Origin: an uncultured Erythrobacter sp.
GTDB lineage: Bacteria > Pseudomonadota > Alphaproteobacteria > Sphingomonadales > Sphingomonadaceae
Assembly (NCBI GenBank): GCA_937899785.1
Contig: CALCCG010000183.1
Span: forward strand, 1-64,000
Reading direction: 5' to 3'
DNA: 64,000 nt
A model generated the notes under the pieces. The model saw only the letters and a list, made by a program, of their open reading frames with translations. It made no database searches and had not been told where the DNA came from. Made by a program: the position numbers and the translations under genes. Shown here one piece after another: positions 43,032-63,990 of this stretch (the stretch's first letter is position 1; each line of letters starts with the position of its first letter).

Positions 43032-43342
43032 GGCTGGCCCTTTCCAAAGGGAAATCGTGAGGAGAGTCTTGCGTGAGAACAGCGTTTCATCCGCTAAGCG
43101 CTTTAACGTCAATGCTGTAACGGTGCACCCCGCAAAGACCCAGTTTTGCGCAACCGCCTGCTTCGTCTTGCTGCAACAGCGATGCGAATCTGTCGCCGCG
43201 CTGCAACAATCACCCGAAGAAAGATATCCAATCGCCGCGTTCTGCGGGTAATTTCGCCTGAAAACCTCGATTCATGCGCGCAAATCTGTCAGCGGCTTCC
43301 TCGCAAGATGCATTGTTGCAACCGAAAATGGGGGGCCGACTC

Positions 43343-45550
43343 ATGTCAAACCGTATTCCCGCCGCGCGCGCTTTGTGGGCCAGCACCACCGCTATGACCG
43401 CCGCTGTCTTCGCCTTTGCCGCTCCTGCAGCGGCGCAAGCTGGCGACGCTTCTGAGGCAGAGGAAGGCCAGTTGCCTTCGATTATTGTGACTGCAAACCG
43501 CCGCGAAGAAAGCCTTCAGGACGTCCCAATTTCGGCCGAAATCCTCGATCAGGGCCGCATCGGAGCGATTTTTTCGGCCGCCGCGGACACCACCGCGCTC
43601 GCCGGAGCGGTTCCCGGGCTCAACATTGAAAGCTCAAACGGCCGCGTGGCGCCGCGCTTTTACATTCGCGGGCTTGGCAACACCGACTTTGACCTGGCCG
43701 CATCACAGCCCGTTTCGGTGATCCTGGACGATGTTGTTATGGAAAACGTGACACTGAAATCCTTTCCGATCTTTGATGTCCAGCGCGTGGAAGTTCTGCG
43801 CGGGCCGCAAGGCACTCTGTTCGGCCGCAACACGCCGGCCGGCATCGTCAAAATCGACACGATCAAGCCCGGCTTTGAAGACGATATTCAGGTTGGGCTG
43901 AGCGTCGGTTCGTTTGGCACCGTGTCCGCCAACGCGGCGTGGGGTGGGGGAATTGTCGAGGACAAGCTGGCCTTCCGCGTTTCGACCCAGTTTCAGCGCC
44001 GCAGCGATTGGATCGATAACGGGTTTACCGGTGAAGAGGACGCGCTGGGCGCCTACACCGACTTCGCCATTCGTGGCCAAATGCTTCTGGTGCCCGATGA
44101 AGAGCGGCGCTTTTCGATGCTGGCGTCGGTGAACTTTCGCGACCTTAGCGGCAGCTCAACCTTTTTCCGCGCCAATGTGCTGGGTCCGGGCAACAACGAA
44201 CTGAACGCGAACTACGACCGCGACACGGTGTTCTATGATGCGGGAGGCGGCAACCCGGCCGAGTACCAGCAGTTCGGCGCCACGCTGAAGATGGACTATG
44301 AGTTTGACTTCGCGACGATTACGCAGATTTCCAGTTACTGGGAGAGTGAAGGCTTCTCGCGCGGGGACGTCGATGGCGGCAATCTGGTAACCGGTCCGGG
44401 TTTCATCCCGTTCCCATCGGACACGCAGGACTCGATCGATCTGCAGCAATTCACGAGCGAAACCCGTTTGGCCTCAAACGGTGATGGACCGCTGAGCTGG
44501 CAGGTCGGCGCGTTTATCTTCACCAGTGATTTCGACGTGTCGACGGTGGGCTTCACCTTTCCGCCGCCCGTCACGGTTAACCACACGAACGACGCTTGGG
44601 CCGTGTTTGGCCAGCTTTCGTATGACCTGAACGATATGTTCCGCGTTACCGGCGGGCTGCGCTACTCCGACGATGAGAAGGACTTTGTGGTCGTCGAAGG
44701 CGCCGCGCCGCAGCCGGTTTCGGTGCAGGATGACAACATCGATTGGGATGTCAGCCTGTTCGCTGATATTGACGACGAGACAAGCCTCTACGCTCGGGTT
44801 GCTAACGCGTTCCGCGCGCCGACCATCCAGGGCCGCGACGTGGCTTTTTTCGGCGCACCGAGCGTCGCGCAGTCGGAAAACATCACCAGCTGGGAGCTTG
44901 GCTTTAAGAGCGAGTTCATCGATCGGCGGCTGCGCCTGAACGGTTCGGTCTTTTACTACACCGTGGAAGACCCGCAATTCACTGCGGTCGGTGGTACGGG
45001 CAACCTGGTGCAGCTGATCAACGCCAACGAGGGCGAGGCCTATGGCTACGAGCTTGACGCTGCGTTCCAGGCATCGCCGCAAATCCTGCTGACGCTGGGC
45101 ATCGCCTACAACAACACGCAGATCAACGATGACGATCTCGCCGTGGGTGTGTGCGCCCAATGCACCGTGACCGATCCGTTTAACCAGAACGGCTTTGCGC
45201 TGGTCGATGGCAACCCATTCCCCAACGCACCCGAGGTAAGCGGCGATTTCACCTTCAGCTACACCGTTCCGGTGGGCGACAACGATGAAGTCTTCCTCTT
45301 CACTGACTGGGTGTATCTGGGTGAAACCAACTTCCTGCTCTATGAAAGCCTTGAAAACAATGCCGACAGCCGCATCGAGGGCGGTCTGCGAATGGGCTAT
45401 CGCGGCAACAATGGGCAGTACGAACTGGCTCTGTTTGCCCGCAACATCACCAACGCTGACAACGTGCAAGGCGTCGTTGATTTCAACAACAACACCGCCT
45501 TCGTAAACGAGCCGCGCGTGATCGGCGTCTCGGTGGGCTTTAGCCTTTAG
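43343..45550 (+). CDS. TonB-dependent receptor
   Basis: Signal peptide; plug IIVTANRREESLQDVPISAEIL...VEVLRGPQGTLFGRNTPAGIVKI; C-terminal IGVSVGFSL. Confidence 0.93.
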   Translation: MSNRIPAARALWASTTAMTAAVFAFAAPAAAQAGDASEAEEGQLPSIIVTANRREESLQDVPISAEILDQGRIGAIFSAAADTTALAGAVPGLNIESSNGRVAPRFYIRGLGNTDFDLAASQPVSVILDDVVMENVTLKSFPIFDVQRVEVLRGPQGTLFGRNTPAGIVKIDTIKPGFEDDIQVGLSVGSFGTVSANAAWGGGIVEDKLAFRVSTQFQRRSDWIDNGFTGEEDALGAYTDFAIRGQMLLVPDEERRFSMLASVNFRDLSGSSTFFRANVLGPGNNELNANYDRDTVFYDAGGGNPAEYQQFGATLKMDYEFDFATITQISSYWESEGFSRGDVDGGNLVTGPGFIPFPSDTQDSIDLQQFTSETRLASNGDGPLSWQVGAFIFTSDFDVSTVGFTFPPPVTVNHTNDAWAVFGQLSYDLNDMFRVTGGLRYSDDEKDFVVVEGAAPQPVSVQDDNIDWDVSLFADIDDETSLYARVANAFRAPTIQGRDVAFFGAPSVAQSENITSWELGFKSEFIDRRLRLNGSVFYYTVEDPQFTAVGGTGNLVQLINANEGEAYGYELDAAFQASPQILLTLGIAYNNTQINDDDLAVGVCAQCTVTDPFNQNGFALVDGNPFPNAPEVSGDFTFSYTVPVGDNDEVFLFTDWVYLGETNFLLYESLENNADSRIEGGLRMGYRGNNGQYELALFARNITNADNVQGVVDFNNNTAFVNEPRVIGVSVGFSL

Positions 45551-45700: not shown

Positions 45701-48613
45701 CTAGTTGGCGTTTGCCATTTCGGCGACCGCTTTGGACTTTGCCAACGCGCTTGGCAGCACGACAAACGTCGCGGCCTCAGCGGGCTGGACATAGACCTGA
45801 GCGGCGGCCTTCAAGTCACCTACCGAAACCGCTTTGAGCACATCGGGATAGGCAAAGAAGCGATCGATACGCTCTGGGTCGCTTTGCGCGCGCTGGGTTA
45901 GCACGGTGTAGACACCCAGATCCTTGAGCGCGTTTTCGTGCCGTTCGAGGAGCGGTTTGCGTGCGCGTTCAACCAGGTCCTGCGAGATGCCATCATCGGT
46001 CACAAGCTCGCGCAACATGGTATCAATGGCGGCGCGCGCCGCGTCGACCTGACTGTCTTCGAGCGACACGCTGATCGTGATCGTTCCGTAATCTCGGTAG
46101 TGGCGGCTGTTGCTCACATTGGCGCGCGGCGAATACGCCTGGCCCAGCTCTTCGCGGATCGTATCTGTCAGTTCCAGTTGAAGCACGCGGCCGAGCATTT
46201 GCAGTTTGACAGCCTCGTCATAGTCGCGGTTGTCCGGCGCGGGCCAGATCATACGCAACAAGGCCTGATCGGGCTCGCCATCGTGCTCGATAACGCGGGT
46301 GGAGCGATCCTGAGTGAAAGTCCGCAAGCGGGCCTCCTCGCGCACACGGAACTGGTCTTCGCGCTCTGTCAGCGCACCAAAGGTGGACGCGACCGCGGCG
46401 ATCGCGGCGTCTTCATCAAGGTCTCCAACAAGGCCAATCTCAATCGCGCCCCGGCTTAACCGGTCCTCGATCACGCTTTGTAGCCCGTCAAAGTCGAGCG
46501 CTTCGAAGGCTTCCTTGGGTTGCAAGGTGAAGCGCGGGTCGCCATCGGACAGGTCTCCCCCGACGACTGCGCCAAGCGCCCGGCCTGGCGTCGAGGTGAG
46601 AGTCTCAAAGAAATTGTCGATGCCCTTGCGAAACCGTTCCACGCCTTCGGGTCGATAGCCCGGATCGGTGATCAACGCCGCCATGAGCTGCAATTGCAGT
46701 TCCAGATCGCGCGGCGTCGTTGTCGAACCCATGCCGAAGCTGTCGACGCCCGCGTCAAACCCAAGGCCAACGCTGCGCCCGGCTAGGATTGTAGAAAGCT
46801 CATCCTGGCTGTGTTCGCCCAGCCCACCCGCGGACAAAGAGCCCGAGAGGTAGACGGCGAGCGGGTCGTCCTTGGTGGTCATCAACGTGCCGCCATCGAC
46901 GGCCAGGCGGACGTTCACCCGGTCCTCTTGCACATCGGTCTGCTTAATGTTGAGTTTGACGCCGTTGTCGAACTCGATCTGACGTATGCCGAGCTGGGTC
47001 TCCATCGTGTCCGAAACAATCGTGCCCGATGCGCCGAATTCGGTGTAGGCGAAAGCGGTGGCGCCCGTGTCGAGCGGGGCCGCGATGGGCAGGGCCATGC
47101 CTTCTTCAAAAGCGAGCCTCAGCGCTTCCTTGCCGCCTTCGGGCGCCTTGCGGCCCTGGAACCGGATCAGAGGGTCCTCAAGCGCGATCACGTGGCTCTT
47201 GAACGCGGCGAAGACGCTGTCCGACGTGATGTTGGGAGCCATCTCTTCGAACAGAGCTAGCCGGTACTCCGGTGTTGTCGGGATAGCGTCGTTGGACACC
47301 AGCGACAAAGCCGCGCCGACAAAGGCGCCGTTGGGGCGCGTGTCCTTGGCTTTGACCGCGTTTTCAAGCGCGGTCCTCCTGCGTGCCAATTGTTCGTCCA
47401 CTTCGGCCTGGGTAAAGCCAAAGGCCAGCGCCTGGTTGTATTCGCGCACAGCCGCCAGCAGACCCTTGCGCCATTCGCCGTCGACGCTGCCAATATTGAC
47501 GCCCGTGTTGCGCCCATCTTCGAAGAAATTGCCTTGCGTGAAGCTGGCTCCGCGGAAGGGGGCATCGGCCTTTCGCGCCAGCCGCGCGAGGCGGCGGTTG
47601 ACGATGGCGTAACCGAGCGACCGCAGCGCCGCCGCCTTGCGATTGGCGAGCGTGTCCGGCTCATCAATCCAAGCGTCGAATTGGACGATTGCAACGCTCT
47701 CAGACAGCGAAGGATCGGTGTAGATATCGGTCTTGCCGCCTTGCGTGACATCGAGCGGTCCGGTCACTGGATCCTTTGGCGCCGGGCCGCCTGACCAGTC
47801 CGCAAACCTGGCGCGCAAAGCCGCCTCCATAACGTCGACCGGGTAATCGCCGACGATCACCAAGACCGTGTTGCGCGGCGTGTAGGTCCGCTCATACAAA
47901 GTGCGCATCTGTTCCGACGTGGCGCCCTCGATCACTTCCAGCGTCCCGATCGGCAAGCGGTCGCCGAACCGCGCATCGGGCGCGTAGAATTCGAAGCCGT
48001 CTTCCTGCGCGCGCTGGGCAAAGCTGCGCCGATCGCGCCGTTCAGCCAGGATGATGCCCCGCTCGCGCTCGACCGCCTCCGGCGCGATCAGGAGCTCGCT
48101 CGCGGTCTCGCGCATCAACATTAAAGCGGTGTCAAGCAGATCCGCGTCGTTGCGCGGTAAGTTGAGCATATAGGTCACCGCTTCAAGCCCGGTCGAAGCG
48201 TTGGTGTCCGCGCCAAAGGCAAGCCCTTCGCGTTCGAGGAGCTTGATCATCTCGCCTTCGGGGATCCCTTTGGACCCATTAAAGGCCATGTGTTCAAGAT
48301 AGTGTGACAGGCCGCGCTCGCTGTCGGTTTCTTCAAGCGATCCGCTGCCGATGCGCATCCGGACCATGGCGGTGCCTTCGGGTGTCGCGTTTTGGCGCAG
48401 GATAAAGCGCAGGCCGTTTTCAAGCTCGCCAAAGACATAGCCCGGATCGACTTCGACGTCGCTGTTCTCAAACGCCCACCTGGGTTCGGGGTCCGCTTGC
48501 TCTTGCGTTGTGGTCGCGCTGGTCTGGGTTTGCGCTGCCAGAGACTGGACAAGCACAAGGTTCGGAAGAGCGAGCGCAAGGCTTGCGGCGAACAGTGTCG
48601 GGCGAATGATCAT
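45701..48613 (-). CDS. M16-family metallopeptidase
   Basis: HxxEH zinc motif in GLSHYLEHMAFNGSKGIPEGEM; two M16 halves; signal peptide. Confidence 0.94.
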   Translation of the reverse strand: MIIRPTLFAASLALALPNLVLVQSLAAQTQTSATTTQEQADPEPRWAFENSDVEVDPGYVFGELENGLRFILRQNATPEGTAMVRMRIGSGSLEETDSERGLSHYLEHMAFNGSKGIPEGEMIKLLEREGLAFGADTNASTGLEAVTYMLNLPRNDADLLDTALMLMRETASELLIAPEAVERERGIILAERRDRRSFAQRAQEDGFEFYAPDARFGDRLPIGTLEVIEGATSEQMRTLYERTYTPRNTVLVIVGDYPVDVMEAALRARFADWSGGPAPKDPVTGPLDVTQGGKTDIYTDPSLSESVAIVQFDAWIDEPDTLANRKAAALRSLGYAIVNRRLARLARKADAPFRGASFTQGNFFEDGRNTGVNIGSVDGEWRKGLLAAVREYNQALAFGFTQAEVDEQLARRRTALENAVKAKDTRPNGAFVGAALSLVSNDAIPTTPEYRLALFEEMAPNITSDSVFAAFKSHVIALEDPLIRFQGRKAPEGGKEALRLAFEEGMALPIAAPLDTGATAFAYTEFGASGTIVSDTMETQLGIRQIEFDNGVKLNIKQTDVQEDRVNVRLAVDGGTLMTTKDDPLAVYLSGSLSAGGLGEHSQDELSTILAGRSVGLGFDAGVDSFGMGSTTTPRDLELQLQLMAALITDPGYRPEGVERFRKGIDNFFETLTSTPGRALGAVVGGDLSDGDPRFTLQPKEAFEALDFDGLQSVIEDRLSRGAIEIGLVGDLDEDAAIAAVASTFGALTEREDQFRVREEARLRTFTQDRSTRVIEHDGEPDQALLRMIWPAPDNRDYDEAVKLQMLGRVLQLELTDTIREELGQAYSPRANVSNSRHYRDYGTITISVSLEDSQVDAARAAIDTMLRELVTDDGISQDLVERARKPLLERHENALKDLGVYTVLTQRAQSDPERIDRFFAYPDVLKAVSVGDLKAAAQVYVQPAEAATFVVLPSALAKSKAVAEMANAN

Positions 48614-51943: not shown

Positions 51944-54900
51944 ATGACCTTGATCCCCCAAACGCGCGTTTGCCTGCTGGCTGGCGTTTGCCTTGCCACG
52001 TTAAGCGGTTTGGGCAGCGCCGCGCCGCTTTTCGCTCAGGGGTCGCAAGCCGGCGCGCTTGCGGGTGACGGGGTTGGATACGCTGCGCAGCGCGCTCGCG
52101 ATGAGGGCCTAAGCGCGCAGCAAGGCGCTCAAGAGGCGGACGAAACCGAATTTGGGGCGGATAGCGGCGGCGGCCCCGGCAATGAGTTGCAAGAAGGACC
52201 CGACGGCACCGAGATTGTCGTTGAGGGCGTGCGCCTGCGCGGGCAGTTAGACGTGGAACAGGAGCCGATCCTGGAGCTGGGCGAAGCGGATATCGCGGCG
52301 GAGGGCGTCGCGTCTATCGCCGATCTCGTGACGCAGATTCAGAATCAAACCGGTTCCGCGCGCGGACGCGGCGGAGGCGGGCGTCCGGTTATCCTCGTCA
52401 ATGGCATTCGTCCGGGAAGCTTTCGAGAACTGTTCCAATACCCACCCGAAGCGTTGGCCAAGGTCGAGGTTTTCCCCGAAGAAGTCGCCCAGCGGTTCGG
52501 TTTCCCGCCGGATCGCCGCGTGATCAATCTAATCCTCAAAGAGAACTATTCCAGCCGCGAGATCGAGCTCGAGTTTGAAGGCCCCGCGCGCGGCGGCAAT
52601 CTCACCACCGAGCAAGAGTTTGGCTATCTCAAGATCGCCGATGGCGGCCGGTTCAACATCAACTTCACCGCGCAAGATGTCTCCTTACTGACCGAGGATG
52701 AGCGCAACATCATCCAGCCGCCGGGTTCGACATCGGACCTGGCGACTGATCCCAGCCAGGCGGAATTCCGAAGCCTCATCCCCGACAGCCGTGTCCTCGA
52801 CGCCAATATCAGCTGGGCCAAGGCCTATCTGGAGAGCGGTCTCTCGCTTTCGGCCAACGCCAATTACGAACGCCGCGACAGCCGCAGTCTCGACGGTCTC
52901 AACCTCGTAACCCTGACCAATCCGGACGGCGAAAGCCTGACGCGCACCTTTGGCGAGGACGACCCGCTCGAGCGGCGCAGCGCCACCGATACGGGCGCCG
53001 TGGCTGGTTCGCTCACTTTGCCGGTCAACGCTTTCCGCCTGACCAGCACCTTTGATGCCAGCCTCACCGAAAACACCACCGAGATAGACAATCCGTTTGA
53101 CACAAGCGCTCTGCAACTGGCGGCGCTTGACGGATCGCTTGCGATTGACGGCGAGCTGCCGACCAGCGCGGATGCTGGGTTCGAGACCGCCTTTTCGCGC
53201 ACTTGGCTTGCGTCGACGCTTACCACCGTGCGCGGCCCCTTGGCGAACTTGCCGGGGGGTGAGCTGCTCACAACCTTTGATATCGGATACAATTGGAACC
53301 GGCTGGAAAGCGCTGACACGCGGACGCAAGAGGACGTGCAGCTGACGCGCGGCAATCTTTCAACCGGGGCCAATTTTGTGATCCCGATCACCAGCCGCCG
53401 CAACGGTTTTGCCGACGCGTTGGGCAGTTTCACGCTGAACGCGCAGATCGGGGTCGAAGAGCTCTCCGATTTCGGAACTCTCGGCGACTACAACACCTCG
53501 CTCAATTGGTCGCCTGTGGACGGGCTCGATTTGTCAGCGACCTACATTTATCGTGAGGTCGCCCCGAGCCTTGGCGATCTCGGCAACCCTCCGGTCACCA
53601 ATTTCAACGTCCCGGTCTTCGATTTCGTGAACGGGGAAACCGTGCTGGCCACCGTCACCACGGGCGGCAATCCGCAATTGCCAGCGGAAACCCAGCGAGA
53701 CTGGAAGTTCGCCGTCAATTGGGAGCTGCCCTTTGTCGACGGAGTGCGCTTCACGGTCGAATATATTCGCAACCGCTCTGATGATGTGACCAGCGCGTTT
53801 CCGCAGGTGACTGACGAGATCGAGGGAGCCTTCCCAGACCGGATTACACGCGATGCGTCCGGCACGCTGATCGCTCTTGATCGGCGTCCGGTCAGCTTTT
53901 CCGAGACCCGCTCGGACCGCTTGCAGTTCCGCCTCTCGGCGCGCGGCGGGTTTGGCGGCGCGGGTGGTGGCCCTCGTGGAGGAGGAGGGGGTCGAGGCGG
54001 GCCGCCTTTTGGCGCCTCAGCGCGCGGTGGACCGCCCGCTTCGTCAAGCGGATCGAGCACCCCTCCATCCGGTGCCGGCGGGCCACCGCGTTTTGGCACA
54101 GCACCTGGTGCACCGGCGCAAGCAGGCGGCCTGCCGGGCGGTGGCGGTCCGGGTGGCGGCTTTATGGCGTTTCGCGAGCGGATCTGCGCCGATGACGGCC
54201 TTGACCTTTTGAAGCGGATCGTCGCTGCGGCTCAAAATGGCGAGGATGTTTCTGCGCTGGCTCCGGGCCTTCCACCCCAAGCCATAGAGCGCATTGTCGC
54301 GCGTTTGGGCGGCGGCGGGGAGAATGTAAGCGACGAACAGCTTGAGATGGCGCGCTCGCGCATTTGTTCGCTGGACCCGGCTCGCCTGTCGGGTCGCGGT
54401 GGGCCGCCTCGTGGACCCGGTGCGCCCGGTCAGCCGCAAGGCCCGGGAGTGCCAGGCGGACCGGGGCCGCAATCGGACGCGATGGCGAGTGCGCAGGCGC
54501 GGCTGTGCGGTGAGAACGGTCTGGCCACAATGCGCGAGCTTGTGGCCAAAATTGAGCGCGGCGAGGACGTCTCGGACATTCTGCCGGGAATGGATCCGCA
54601 ATTCCTCAAATTCGGGCTCGATCGGATGCGTTCTGACGATGGCAGTGTCCCGGATGCCGCGCTGGACCGGATGCGCAGTCGGATTTGCTCGACCATGCCG
54701 CAGTCCGGCCAGGGTGGCCCGCCGAGCGCTGGCGGTGCCCCCGCACAAGGGGCCGGCGGCCCCGCGTTCAATCCGTTAGCAGCGGGAGGACGGCGCGGTT
54801 GGCGCTATTTCGTCAACCTCACGCACACACTTGAGTTGCAGAGCGAGATTCTCATCGCGCCCGGTGTCGAGGTGCTCGACCAGCTTGATGGCGATGCGAC

Positions 54901-55273
54901 CGGTGCGTTTGGCTTCCCGCGCCATTCCTCCCGATTGGAAGCCGGGCTGTTTGGCAACGGTGTCGGCTTCCGTTTGTCGGGGCGCTACACCGGCGAAACG
55001 CGGCTGGATGGCTCGGATACGGGCGGCAGCGGCGATCTGTTCTTCAACGATCTCGCTACGTTCGACCTGCGCGTCTTTGGCAATGTGGACCAGATCACAG
55101 GCAGCCGGAGCCCGGCGCTCAAAAACCTGCGCGTTTCCTTGAGAATGGACAACATTTTCGACGCCCAGCGCGCGGTGCGGGACGAAAACGGGGACACACC
55201 GATCAATTACCAACCGTTCGTGATCGATCCGGTTGGTCGCTTTATCGGGATCGATATCCGCAAGCTGTTCTGA
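51944..55273 (+). CDS. TonB-dependent receptor-like outer-membrane protein with large Gly/Pro-rich insertion
   Basis: Plug-like region [77 protein letters not shown]; beta-barrel-like segments either side of a low-complexity insertion. Confidence 0.85.
54170..54378 (+). repeat. Intragenic Cys-paired repeat unit 1 inside the outer-membrane protein
   Basis: [70 protein letters not shown]. Confidence 0.75.
54490..54705 (+). repeat. Intragenic Cys-paired repeat unit 2 inside the outer-membrane protein
   Basis: [71 protein letters not shown]; shares C-x3-GL...GEDVS-[AD]-[IL]-xPG...MRSRICS pattern with unit 1. Confidence 0.75.
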
Positions 55274-55285
55274 GGCGAGCCGCGC

Positions 55286-56134
55286 TTACAGGCTCAGCTT
55301 GGGGAACAACCAGCTTTGGCCTTGGCTCGCTTCAAACGGGGCCCATTCCCCTTCTGGTTGCGCCAACCGATCGGCAATGGCGATCATAACAGAAGGATTG
55401 ACGCCAAGGCCGCAATGGCTGGCGTAGACTAGGATGTTCTCGCTCGGCGCTCCGGTCGCCTTGGCCGGGTCCTGAACGCTGCCGCGCCAGTGGACGACGC
55501 CATCCGTCTTGGTCAGCACCGAAGTGGTCGGCACCGGCGGAGCAATGTCGAGGCCACGGAACTGGCCGTCGCGAATGCGTTCAGGTTCGTCGCCGTTGAA
55601 AAACTTGAACAGGCGCGCGGCGTTGGTGTGGTTGCGATCATCGGTGATGGGGCTGCCAAGGCTCATCACCAACCGCACTTTATCCGGGTGCAGTTTGGCA
55701 AGCTCGCGTGCGAGCACACCGCCCAAACTCCAGCCGATCAGCGAAACTTTGCCGCCGCTGTCCTGGAACAGCCGCTCCAATTGGTCTTCCAGTTTCCGGA
55801 TAAGCTCTTCGTTGACGCGCACGTTGCGGCCCGAATCCCAGCCATGCGCGTCATAGCCAAGGCTTCTGAGCAGACCGCGCATCGGGATAGTCGAACTGTT
55901 GGTGGCCATAAATCCTGGCAGCGTCATCACGGCATGGCCGTCGCCTTGTGGGAGGCTCGTCATCCAGGCCCGCGAGGCGTAAAACGCGGCGAATTCCAGC
56001 ATCGCGCGGCCTTCGGAAAGCGTCCAAATGCGGTGCGGCGGTCTGGGAAGCTCGGTCGGCATTTCGCGCTCAAGCTTGCCGTCATTGACGATGATGCTGC
56101 CGGGCAGGGGCTGCATGGGTGCCATAGAGGCCAT
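55286..56134 (-). CDS. Alpha/beta hydrolase
   Basis: VSLIGWSLGGVLARELAKLHPDKVRLVMSLGSPI (GxSxG); overlaps the upstream acyltransferase gene. Confidence 0.85.
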   Translation of the reverse strand: MASMAPMQPLPGSIIVNDGKLEREMPTELPRPPHRIWTLSEGRAMLEFAAFYASRAWMTSLPQGDGHAVMTLPGFMATNSSTIPMRGLLRSLGYDAHGWDSGRNVRVNEELIRKLEDQLERLFQDSGGKVSLIGWSLGGVLARELAKLHPDKVRLVMSLGSPITDDRNHTNAARLFKFFNGDEPERIRDGQFRGLDIAPPVPTTSVLTKTDGVVHWRGSVQDPAKATGAPSENILVYASHCGLGVNPSVMIAIADRLAQPEGEWAPFEASQGQSWLFPKLSL

Positions 56135-57750
56135 TACTTGCTCTCCTCGGTGATGCGCGCGGCCGACGCTGATGTCGGTTTGCGCTTGGCCGTGGATCCC
56201 TTCCTAGCCGGTTTGCGTGTCGTCCTCTTTGACACAGGTTTTGTCTTTGGTGCGGGCTTGCCCGCCGGTTTTCTACCGCGCGGGTTAGCACGTACGGTCT
56301 TAACCGTCGATTGAGGAGCGCCTTTCGCATCCACAGCCTTGGCGGCGGCCAGCAGATCGTCAAAGCTTTCCTGCAGGCATTCGGAATAGAATTCCGGGTC
56401 CGGCATGATGTCGCGGCACGCGGTGAAGCTGATATAGGCCTCATCGACATAGGATTGGACGACGTGTGCCAGGCCCAACCCATCGGTAAGGCAAATGAGC
56501 GAGAGCGCCATGCTCTCAAGCCGCGCGCTGGATGAATAGATGTGCACCGGCGGGCCGGGCACATTGGTCACCACGGTGTTGAACGGCATCGCCCGGTGCG
56601 CAAGGCTGACGCGGCTGAACAATTGCGCCCCCAGCGCCATGTAGAGCAGCGGGTTGACCTTGCTCACCTCGGTCATGGTGCGCGCGCCGATGGCGTTGGT
56701 CATCGCCTTGGAATTGCTCGTTTGGCTGTAGACGTATTCGAGGCGCTCTTTGGGATCGGCGAGATGCGTGCCCAGCGGGGCGACCATGGCGGAGACCTGG
56801 TTGCCCATATCGCCCTTTTCCCCGTCGGATCGCACTGAGATCGGGGCCATCGCGGTCATCGTCGATTTGGGCAGATCATCCTTGGCAGTGAGATATTTGT
56901 TCAGCGCCCCGCCGATCACAGCGATGGCCACATCGTTGACCTTCGCCTCGGGTAACAGCGCGCGGATCGACTTGAACGCTTTGAGATCAAAGCTTCGCCC
57001 TTCGACCACGCGGTGCGGCGAGATCGTCTTGTTAAAGCGCGTGCGCGGCGGAATTATGTCGCTGGTGATCTTGAAATCGCGCGCGATCAGCCCCTTGATC
57101 GCGCTCGCGACGCCGGGAATGCTTTGCGCCGCAACTTGCGCCTGACGCAGCGGATTGATCAGTGAATTGACGTAGGACTTGCCCAAAAGCTCGACCGGGC
57201 CAGGGATTTTCTCCGGCTTCCAGGTGTCGGGTTCGTTCGGGGGAGGCGTGTTGGGCGCGAGCGTGTGCAGCGCCTCCATCAAATCAATCCCGCTCATCCC
57301 GTCAATCGCGGAGTGATGAACCTTGGTCACGAAGGCAAAACACCCCGGGGGATAGCCCTCAACCGCATCGAGACCTTCGACCACGGTGAACTCCCAGGGC
57401 GGGCGGTTGAGATCAAGCGGGCGCGCGTGAATGCGCGCGGCCTGGATGCACAATTGCCGCCAATCGCCGGGCCTGGGCAAAGCGACATGGCGCACGTGGT
57501 ATTCAAGATCGAAATCGGGGTCTTCTATCCAGTAGGGATAGTCGAGATCAAACGGAACGCGGACCAGCCGCTGACGCATGGTGCGCGAGAGCTGCATGCG
57601 CGATCCAATGAACGCCAGAATATCCTTAAACCGGACAAAGCCACCCGGAGCGGTTTCCGGATTGTAGATCAGGACGCTGCCGATATGCATCGGCGAATTG
57701 GGCGATTCCATCGCCACAAACGAGGAATCCATGCCTTGCAGTTGCCGCAA
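56134..57750 (-). CDS. Wax ester synthase/diacylglycerol acyltransferase (WS/DGAT) family
   Basis: MRQLQGMDSSFVAMESPNSPMHIGSVLIY; HHxxxD motif in VTKVHHSAIDGMSGIDLMEAL; TNVPGPPVHIY. Confidence 0.94.
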   Translation of the reverse strand: MRQLQGMDSSFVAMESPNSPMHIGSVLIYNPETAPGGFVRFKDILAFIGSRMQLSRTMRQRLVRVPFDLDYPYWIEDPDFDLEYHVRHVALPRPGDWRQLCIQAARIHARPLDLNRPPWEFTVVEGLDAVEGYPPGCFAFVTKVHHSAIDGMSGIDLMEALHTLAPNTPPPNEPDTWKPEKIPGPVELLGKSYVNSLINPLRQAQVAAQSIPGVASAIKGLIARDFKITSDIIPPRTRFNKTISPHRVVEGRSFDLKAFKSIRALLPEAKVNDVAIAVIGGALNKYLTAKDDLPKSTMTAMAPISVRSDGEKGDMGNQVSAMVAPLGTHLADPKERLEYVYSQTSNSKAMTNAIGARTMTEVSKVNPLLYMALGAQLFSRVSLAHRAMPFNTVVTNVPGPPVHIYSSSARLESMALSLICLTDGLGLAHVVQSYVDEAYISFTACRDIMPDPEFYSECLQESFDDLLAAAKAVDAKGAPQSTVKTVRANPRGRKPAGKPAPKTKPVSKRTTRKPARKGSTAKRKPTSASAARITEESK

Positions 57751-61671: not shown

Positions 61672-63990
61672 GTGTTGGAACCAGTCAGAAAGCTTTTGGC
61701 GACGCCGCGCGTAAGGCATTGCGCGATCGCGATCGCGCTCGCGACACTGACCGCGTTCCTGACGCTTTTGCGCCCACTCGACATCACCGCCTGGTCGCTC
61801 CAGGCCAAGCTTTTCACCCATCCGCCCAGCGGTTCGATCGTGCTGGTGACCGACGATCAGGGCGCCGCGCGCAATTCCTTGCCTGCGGCGAACACGCTGA
61901 TCCTCGCCGCGCTTGAAAACCTGGATGAGGCGGGCGCAAGCCGGGTCGTGATCGACACACCGCTAAGGGCCAGCACCAATCCCGAGCTGGATCAAAGGCT
62001 GCGCGACGCCATCGTCGCAATGGACGACCGCGCCGTCATCGCCGCGCCGCTTGATCCCGCAATCACCGAAGGCCGGTTGCGCCACCCCAACGCAAGCCTG
62101 TTCAAGAACGCCGCTCCGCTGGCGAGCAGCGACCTGTTGACCGACTTTCTCGACTTTGTCTGGGCGATAGAGCCCGCGCACAAGGTTGGCCCAGACCGCT
62201 ACCCCGCGCTCTGGACTGTCCTTGCGCCAGCCGAGGCTGGGAACACCCCGATTTATCCCGCTTATTCGCTCAAGTCCCGCGACATCCCTGCGGTCGACAT
62301 CTCCGATCTGGCATCGGGCGATCCCGAGGCGCTGCAACGCGTGCGCGCCAAGCAGGTGGTGTTCGCCGCGCTCGATGGCGATGAGCGCGTCTTCCAGGCG
62401 CCCGACAGCGTCAAACTCAACATTTCCTCTGCGCATCTTCACATCATCGCGGCGGAGACCGCGCTTCGCGCAAGCGGCAAATTCTATCCCGCCTGGTTGA
62501 CCAATCTCGCCTTTGGATTTGTCCTGCTCGCGATCGTCTGCCTGCCCTTTACCAAGCGCGAACGTCGGATCGCCTACGCCTTCTGGAGCGCGCTCTTCGT
62601 TGTGGCGTTCATCCTCGCGGCCTCGTCAGGACACCGGGTGATGTTGGCCGATCCGATTTTGATTGCGTTCGCTTATGGCACGATGCGCATGATCGCCAAT
62701 TATCGCCGGCGGCACCTCTATGTTGATGCGCAAAGCCGTCTGCCCAACTTCACCGCGTTTCGCCGCCACCTCGAAGCGCAAGGCGCTCTTGGTGAGCATG
62801 TGATGGTGATCATCAAAGTCGCGCGGCTCGACGCCATATTCGCAACCCTTAAGGGAAGCGAGCAAGGCGAATATCTGCGCCAGGTCGCCAGCCGTCTGGC
62901 GCTGGGCGAAGCGGGTGCGAACGTGTTCCATGACGGCGGCAAGTATCTGGGGATGGCCTTTCGCCGCTCCGACTACGTCGATTTGCAAGGGCACCTCGAG
63001 GGCTTGCGCGCCGTTGCCTCGCAAGCGGTGATGGTGGGCGATACCCCGATTGATGTGGCGATCACGATCGGTGTTGACCAGTCCAAAGAAGGCGATGTGT
63101 CCAACCGCATCAGTTCCGCCATCGCCGCCGCCGATCAGGCGCGTGAGGCCTATCGGCCGGTCTTCATCATCTCCGACTTCCAGGCCGACAGCGAGGAATG
63201 GGACCATTCGCTGCAATCCCGGCTCGAGCACGCTTTGTCCGAAAACCGTATTTCGGTGAAACTTCAACCTAAGGTCGACATGCAGTCGGGCCTGTTTGTC
63301 GGAGCCGAGGCGCTGGCGCGCTGGACTGACCAGAAACGCGGCGAGATCCCGCCAGTGCGTTTCATCCTCCAATGCGAGCGTGCAGGGCGGCTGGACGATC
63401 TGACCAAGCGCGTCATGGAAAAGAGCATGTACGCCTCGATGGACCTCCAGGCGAAGGGCCTTCCATCGAAGGTTTCGGTCAACGTGTCGGCGATCCAGTT
63501 CGTCGACAGCCGGATTGTTGATCTGGTTGAGATAGCGCTGAGCGCGACCGGCGCCGATCCGAGCAATATGATGATCGAGATCACGGAAACCGCGCGGGTT
63601 GAGAACATTGTGCGCGCGCGGTCGATCGTGGAGGAGATCAAAGGTCTCGGGATTGAGTTCTCCATCGACGATTTCGGTGTTGGCAGCGGCAATTTCGACG
63701 CGCTTTACGGGCTTCCCTTTGATGAAATGAAGATCGACCGCATGTTTGCCAACGAAGCGGCGCGTTGCCCCAGAGCGCGCGCCGTCGTGGCCTCAATGCT
63801 CGACCTTTCGCGATCCTTTGGCATCCGCAGCGTGGTCGAAGGGATCGATCACCTCGCCACGTTTGAGGTGCTGCGCGATATGGGCGGCGATCTGGCGCAA
63901 GGCTTTTGCATCGCGCGGCCGCAGACATTGCCCTTACTGTGCGAGACTTTGAAGCTTCAGGCGACGACCCAGTTACGGAGAACGCCTTAA
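61672..63990 (+). CDS. CHASE2-like / degenerate GGDEF / EAL protein
   Basis: N-terminal periplasmic CHASE2-like region then TM helices; DGGKYLGMAF in place of GGDEF; GAEALARWTD, SIDDFGVGSGNFDALYGLPFDEMKID; GTG start. Confidence 0.85.
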   Translation: MLEPVRKLLATPRVRHCAIAIALATLTAFLTLLRPLDITAWSLQAKLFTHPPSGSIVLVTDDQGAARNSLPAANTLILAALENLDEAGASRVVIDTPLRASTNPELDQRLRDAIVAMDDRAVIAAPLDPAITEGRLRHPNASLFKNAAPLASSDLLTDFLDFVWAIEPAHKVGPDRYPALWTVLAPAEAGNTPIYPAYSLKSRDIPAVDISDLASGDPEALQRVRAKQVVFAALDGDERVFQAPDSVKLNISSAHLHIIAAETALRASGKFYPAWLTNLAFGFVLLAIVCLPFTKRERRIAYAFWSALFVVAFILAASSGHRVMLADPILIAFAYGTMRMIANYRRRHLYVDAQSRLPNFTAFRRHLEAQGALGEHVMVIIKVARLDAIFATLKGSEQGEYLRQVASRLALGEAGANVFHDGGKYLGMAFRRSDYVDLQGHLEGLRAVASQAVMVGDTPIDVAITIGVDQSKEGDVSNRISSAIAAADQAREAYRPVFIISDFQADSEEWDHSLQSRLEHALSENRISVKLQPKVDMQSGLFVGAEALARWTDQKRGEIPPVRFILQCERAGRLDDLTKRVMEKSMYASMDLQAKGLPSKVSVNVSAIQFVDSRIVDLVEIALSATGADPSNMMIEITETARVENIVRARSIVEEIKGLGIEFSIDDFGVGSGNFDALYGLPFDEMKIDRMFANEAARCPRARAVVASMLDLSRSFGIRSVVEGIDHLATFEVLRDMGGDLAQGFCIARPQTLPLLCETLKLQATTQLRRTP

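Follow-up and report, generated by a model that had tools for sequence, protein, structure and literature searches.

A divergent TonB-dependent transporter of an uncultured Erythrobacter sp. with a predicted periplasmic arm of two cysteine-paired helical modules

The usual picture of TonB-dependent transporters (TBDTs) is one of short periplasmic turns and coupling at one point, the TonB box, and large insertions in these proteins are mostly expected in surface loops. FecA, FpvA, and FoxA have an additional flexible periplasmic domain, which is N-terminal and precedes the TonB box (PMC11658791). Here, we describe a TBDT-like gene in a 64,000-nucleotide stretch of DNA from an uncultured Erythrobacter sp. 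of the family Sphingomonadaceae (contig CALCCG010000183.1, positions 1 to 64,000; hereafter, the window). Its product has in common with FepA/PfeA/PirA, BtuB, and FhuA a predicted 22-strand barrel and an N-terminal plug, and carries a stretch that resembles a TonB box, but differs from them in a predicted periplasmic turn T8 of 282 residues that contains folded modules. As in FecA, FpvA, and FoxA, the extra domain appears to be flexible and on the periplasmic side, whereas here it lies within the barrel sequence, is helical and Cys-paired, and has no matching family in the searches below. A literature search found no paper on this insert.

The gene product is best read, from its model, as a divergent TBDT, because AlphaFold2 (57-row alignment) yields a 22-strand barrel, mostly at pLDDT >90, with an N-terminal plug, and because a Foldseek search with this model returns PirA, FepA, and PfeA (E 4e-20 to 4e-19) together with Cir and BtuB (whole match range 4e-20 to about 1e-15), the best structural matches sharing only 8–12% identity. 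The TonB-receptor-like barrel described by the initial annotation was thus borne out. In a Pfam scan the transporter reached an E value of 0.026 for Plug (PF07715), which is below the cut-off (the homologue L081 scores 6.7e-5), and matched no barrel family (PF00593). The C-terminal K and F are conserved in the homologue alignment, and the stretch TEIVVEG is presumably comparable to known TonB boxes (Table 1). Barrel relatives in Sphingomonas plasmid records are annotated as “TonB-dependent receptor.” The barrel family (L075-L099) was found in almost all genera sampled from the family, in many cases together with paralogues, and among the proteins scanned it evades the Pfam barrel model and stays under the cut-off for Plug. 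The window also encodes a second, canonical TonB-dependent receptor (43274..45550, +; PF00593 E 1.4e-29, Plug 4.9e-16), which is adjoined by an M16 peptidase gene (45701..48613, −), and an EAL-domain protein with a weak CHASE2 match (61672..63990, +).

Table 1. Features of the predicted TBDT gene and its insert (window coordinates)
Feature	Coordinates (nt)	Strand	Basis
Predicted TonB-dependent transporter ORF, 1109 aa (P0001)	51944..55273	+	ORF call, AlphaFold2, Foldseek
Apparent N-terminal signal peptide, hydrophobic	start of ORF 51944..55273	+	sequence reading, no prediction tool
TonB-box-like stretch TEIVVEG, aa 89-95	52208..52228	+	by eye; just ahead of plug
Plug domain, about aa 89-198	52208..52537	+	weak Pfam Plug match, model
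Barrel strands 1-16, aa 202-670	52547..53953	+	AlphaFold2 DSSP
Whole insert, 282 residues, aa 671-952, between strands 16 and 17	53954..54799	+	AlphaFold2
Linker 1, Gly 42% Pro 19%, no acidic residues	53954..54154	+	pLDDT mostly <50
Module U1, aa 738-811, four helices, C748/C808	54155..54376	+	model, alignment, profile
Linker 2, Gly 35% Pro 32%	54377..54469	+	model, composition
Module U2, aa 843-917, four helices, C855/C915	54470..54694	+	model, alignment, profile
Linker 3	54695..54799	+	model, composition
Barrel strands 17-22 + C-terminal Phe, aa 953-1109	54800..55270	+	model, alignment

The insert had initially been placed at 53938-54790 with about 280 residues, within 16 bases of the limits given here. 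In the AlphaFold2 model, 16 barrel strands precede it and six follow; the gaps after odd strands measure 3–42 residues and those after even strands 2–14, the insert excepted, so that it follows an even strand and every other periplasmic turn has 2–14 residues. In TBDT topology the plug and the C-terminus are on the periplasmic side, and this, taken with the strand parity, predicts that the insert is a periplasmic turn, T8, rather than a surface loop. Of the two locations originally offered, exposed or periplasmic, the second therefore stands and the surface loop does not, and we infer that the insert faces the periplasm in cells. Periplasmic turns are named T1-T10 in PfeA (PMC6694100), and in the FhuA-TonB crystal structure, according to a figure legend, T8 and T9 are labelled beside docked TonB (PMC11658791, figure 3 legend). 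By homology, T8 may lie near TonB in this transporter as well.

Within the insert, two modules of four helices each (U1 and U2) were modelled at pLDDT about 90, and U2 modelled alone adopted the same four helices (pLDDT 89.7), which agrees with the earlier reading of two paralogous helical units. The model does not fix where the modules sit relative to the barrel. They share 39% identity over 67 aa (pairwise E 1e-15), and an HMM of 23 units from other genomes, with the window and its nearest relative left out, matched U1 at 2.3e-26 and U2 at 9.6e-22 and gave no match to a control with a shuffled insert. The motifs reported at their ends, RIC...MARSRICS and RLC...RMRSRICS, are present, and the two Cys are 60 residues apart in both modules. 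Across 38 units from the transporter’s own genus the alignment is gap-free, both Cys are kept, and the spacing is exactly 60 in 38/38, with invariant positions that include both Cys, two Gly, and one Pro. Modules of other genera are shorter or longer (Cys spacing 37–63 overall) around a common core, roughly F-x-x-x-R-x-x-x-C ... L-P-x-x-M-x-x-R-L-x-x-x-D-G-x-[IV]-D-P-x-R-[LIV]-x-x-x-R-x-R-x-C.

The Cys pair that had been proposed to close each unit is supported by several observations. In every homologue the number of Cys in the insert is even (0, 2, or 4), counted over loci some of which share one genome; the homologous barrels have no Cys; L006 and L028, orthologues that have no module, lack both Cys; and DsbA and DsbB are present in the genome. 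In addition, periplasmic proteomics of the related Novosphingobium aromaticivorans found even Cys numbers in 53 of 55 proteins and an oxidised state for most proteins with two Cys (PMC3608174). From these observations, we infer that a disulfide between the first and the last helix closes each module.

The quoted Gly/Pro-rich linker strings are likewise present in the insert, where three linkers of 31–42% Gly and 17–32% Pro, free of acidic residues and of Cys, separate and flank the modules. They are disordered in the model (pLDDT mostly <50, about 24–36) and vary widely among homologues in length and sequence. Calling them “collagen-like” was not upheld: the longest Gly-X-Y run is four triplets, at least 68% of shuffles reach the observed run for each linker, and no Collagen family matched in the Pfam scan of the transporter; the term fits the linker composition alone.

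Searches for known relatives of the module returned nothing significant in Pfam (25 modules), NCBIfam, or PDB sequences, and Foldseek found no match to PDB (best E 0.49) or to viral models (none <0.4 in either), in keeping with the initial statement that the unit is not a named domain. A new fold is not proven by this, because Foldseek performs poorly on small helical domains and the comparison covered PDB and viral models. The module shows some resemblance to the EF-hand, since the module’s helix 3-loop-helix 4 falls in an EF-like register, with D/N at position 5, G at 6, I/V at 8, and the next helix from position 10. Unlike in an EF-hand, position 1 is mostly hydrophobic or Ser and position 12 mostly Arg/Lys/Ala, with no Glu. 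A calmodulin match (E 0.35) was at chance level, EF-hand families were absent from the Pfam matches of the 25 modules, and a PF13202 search of the transporter’s own genome did not list its gene. A calcium-binding EF-hand was rejected on these grounds, and calcium binding appears unlikely from the residues, because no acidic residue occupies position 1 and no Glu position 12.

Homologues collected from GTDB-type genomes gave 97 distinct rows, of which 53 have two modules (inserts of 176–303 residues), 25 have one (132–194), and 19 have none (51–112). The zero-module orthologues, e.g., L006 of Novosphingobium lentum, L081, and L083, share the barrel, and in these three also the infA neighbour, and carry a Cys-less, Gly-rich linker where the modules sit here. 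Because they retain barrel and linker, the units are not part of a known plug or barrel element, and because they keep the same locus, the transporter does not require the modules. On a barrel tree (quick tree, insert columns removed, midpoint root), at least 14 changes in module number are required, and most zero-module proteins fall outside the module-bearing group. L006/L081 and L028, nested within that group, look like module losses, or possibly, for L006/L081, the others gained the module later. Apparently, the Gly-rich, Cys-less linker is older than the modules, which were gained and lost on it repeatedly, and a module tree of few columns suggests that the second units within the own genus have more than one origin. 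In the drafts L023 and L025, the orthologue ends within a Gly-rich stretch at 662–669 aa, seemingly because the contig breaks off in repetitive GC-rich DNA and not because the gene is short.

Selection on the modules appears to be purifying, with dN/dS (Nei-Gojobori) of 0.05–0.20 over four pairs, values that are rough because synonymous divergence is high, and a fifth pair that is saturated. The module value is below that of the barrel in three of the four pairs, the reverse holding for the window versus L004 (0.20 vs 0.08). Together with the HMM matches and the shuffled-insert control, these ratios rule out the alternative, raised at the outset, that the repeats are low-complexity artefacts. 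Overall, the original observation was confirmed and its interpretation partly supported.

Taxonomically, the module profile matched 62 of the 201 family genomes, in 28 of 96 genera, and no genome gave more than two matches. A class-wide sample of 289 genomes contained three with a match, all from this genome or its family, and the sampled alphaproteobacterial genomes outside the family gave none. Matches from the order (201 genomes), class (289), and family (201) samples lie almost all in ORFs of ~800–1200 aa, with a few in shorter ORFs cut by contig ends, and all 35 loci fetched from the class and family searches are homologues of the transporter gene. One profile match was weak (G591, 22 bits). 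No stand-alone relative of the module was found among the matches fetched and checked, a subset of those listed, and as far as matches were inspected the module seems restricted to the transporter gene.

The gene order in the window is purC, RNase E/G-like, maf, and infA (−), transporter (+), hydrolase, WS/DGAT, and HI0933-like (−), and uvrC (+). From purC to uvrC it is retained in L002-L005 as far as the flanks reach, infA and uvrC still flank the gene in L006, and most relatives with sufficient flank, several zero-module ones included, have infA as the divergent neighbour. The transporter is a core gene common to many genera of the family. The alpha/beta (lipase-like) hydrolase and the WS/DGAT wax-ester synthase (55286..57750, −) are neighbours conserved in many relatives and hint at a possible lipid-type substrate of the transporter. 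Presence of this pair showed no consistent correlation with the modules.

We regard the anatomy of the arm and its modules as very probably correct. The explanation that we favor overall, with doubt still slightly outweighing belief, is that the T8 arm with its disulfide-closed modules is a tethered periplasmic docking element. T8 would be enlarged to a flexible arm of ~280 residues, with three disordered linkers and two four-helix modules, each pinned shut by a disulfide that links its first helix to its last. The linkers, which are Cys-free and acid-free and so fit a tether, would allow the modules to sweep the space below the barrel mouth, where they could bind a partner in the periplasm, be it TonB as it reaches the plug or some protein that carries the substrate onward. 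Such binding would raise the local concentration of the partner, and module number, one or two, might tune avidity. From position, TonB is the obvious candidate; the conserved neighbours (infA, lipase-like hydrolase, WS/DGAT, and uvrC) do not name a docking partner. Docking as the role of the arm is a tentative proposal about which we are more doubtful than about its anatomy, and the fuller claim of a new, small, family-specific, disulfide-closed domain in T8 that recruits TonB or a hand-over protein at variable copy number seems somewhat unlikely.

Several other readings bear on the same evidence. The arm might instead be a steric or regulatory lid that folds back under the plug and gates access of TonB to the TonB box with no third protein, an effect comparable to that of the N-terminal signalling domain of FecA/FpvA; T8 is on the TonB-facing side, and in unliganded FecA the signalling domain reportedly blocks the TonB box (PMC11658791). 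However, no FecR/FecI-type gene was present among the neighbours scanned, and the docking arm is preferred over a fitted lid because long disordered tethers and compact, conserved modules free to vary between 0 and 2 suit avidity for a mobile partner better, which leaves the lid unlikely. An arm of this length could also reach the peptidoglycan, and modules bound there would tether the outer-membrane barrel or act as its spacer; Arg at −21, −4, and −2 from the second Cys is kept in nearly all modules. We consider this reading improbable, as none of the peptidoglycan-binding families, OmpA and LysM included, gave a match, close orthologues do without modules, and universal peptidoglycan leaves the restriction to one gene family unexplained.

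Neutral expansion, in which a Gly/Pro low-complexity linker grew and acquired a module without a specific role, would account for the module-free linkers in 19 rows and for the great variability of linker length and sequence, yet the low dN/dS of the modules, the Cys that are never unpaired, and the 38 gap-free units of the own genus make it improbable to much the same degree. Still further down we would place a redox switch, in which the arm opens or closes as its Cys pairs sense redox conditions in the periplasm: the pairs are invariant, but their spacing of 37–63 with no CXXC-type motif is explained by ordinary structural disulfides. A surface-loop domain for ligand capture outside the cell would fit the usual expectation for large TBDT insertions, but strand count and loop alternation point to the periplasm, and this we hold to be the least probable reading of all.

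Together, these analyses describe modules that are predicted to be folded, appear to be under selection, and vary in copy number, in a turn that by structural homology would sit beside the TonB docking site. Orthologues that lack modules or carry one or two of them amount to a natural deletion series in which the function of the arm can be tested directly. If the docking reading is true, these transporters would be coupled to the periplasm by a route other than the TonB box or an N-terminal signalling domain.
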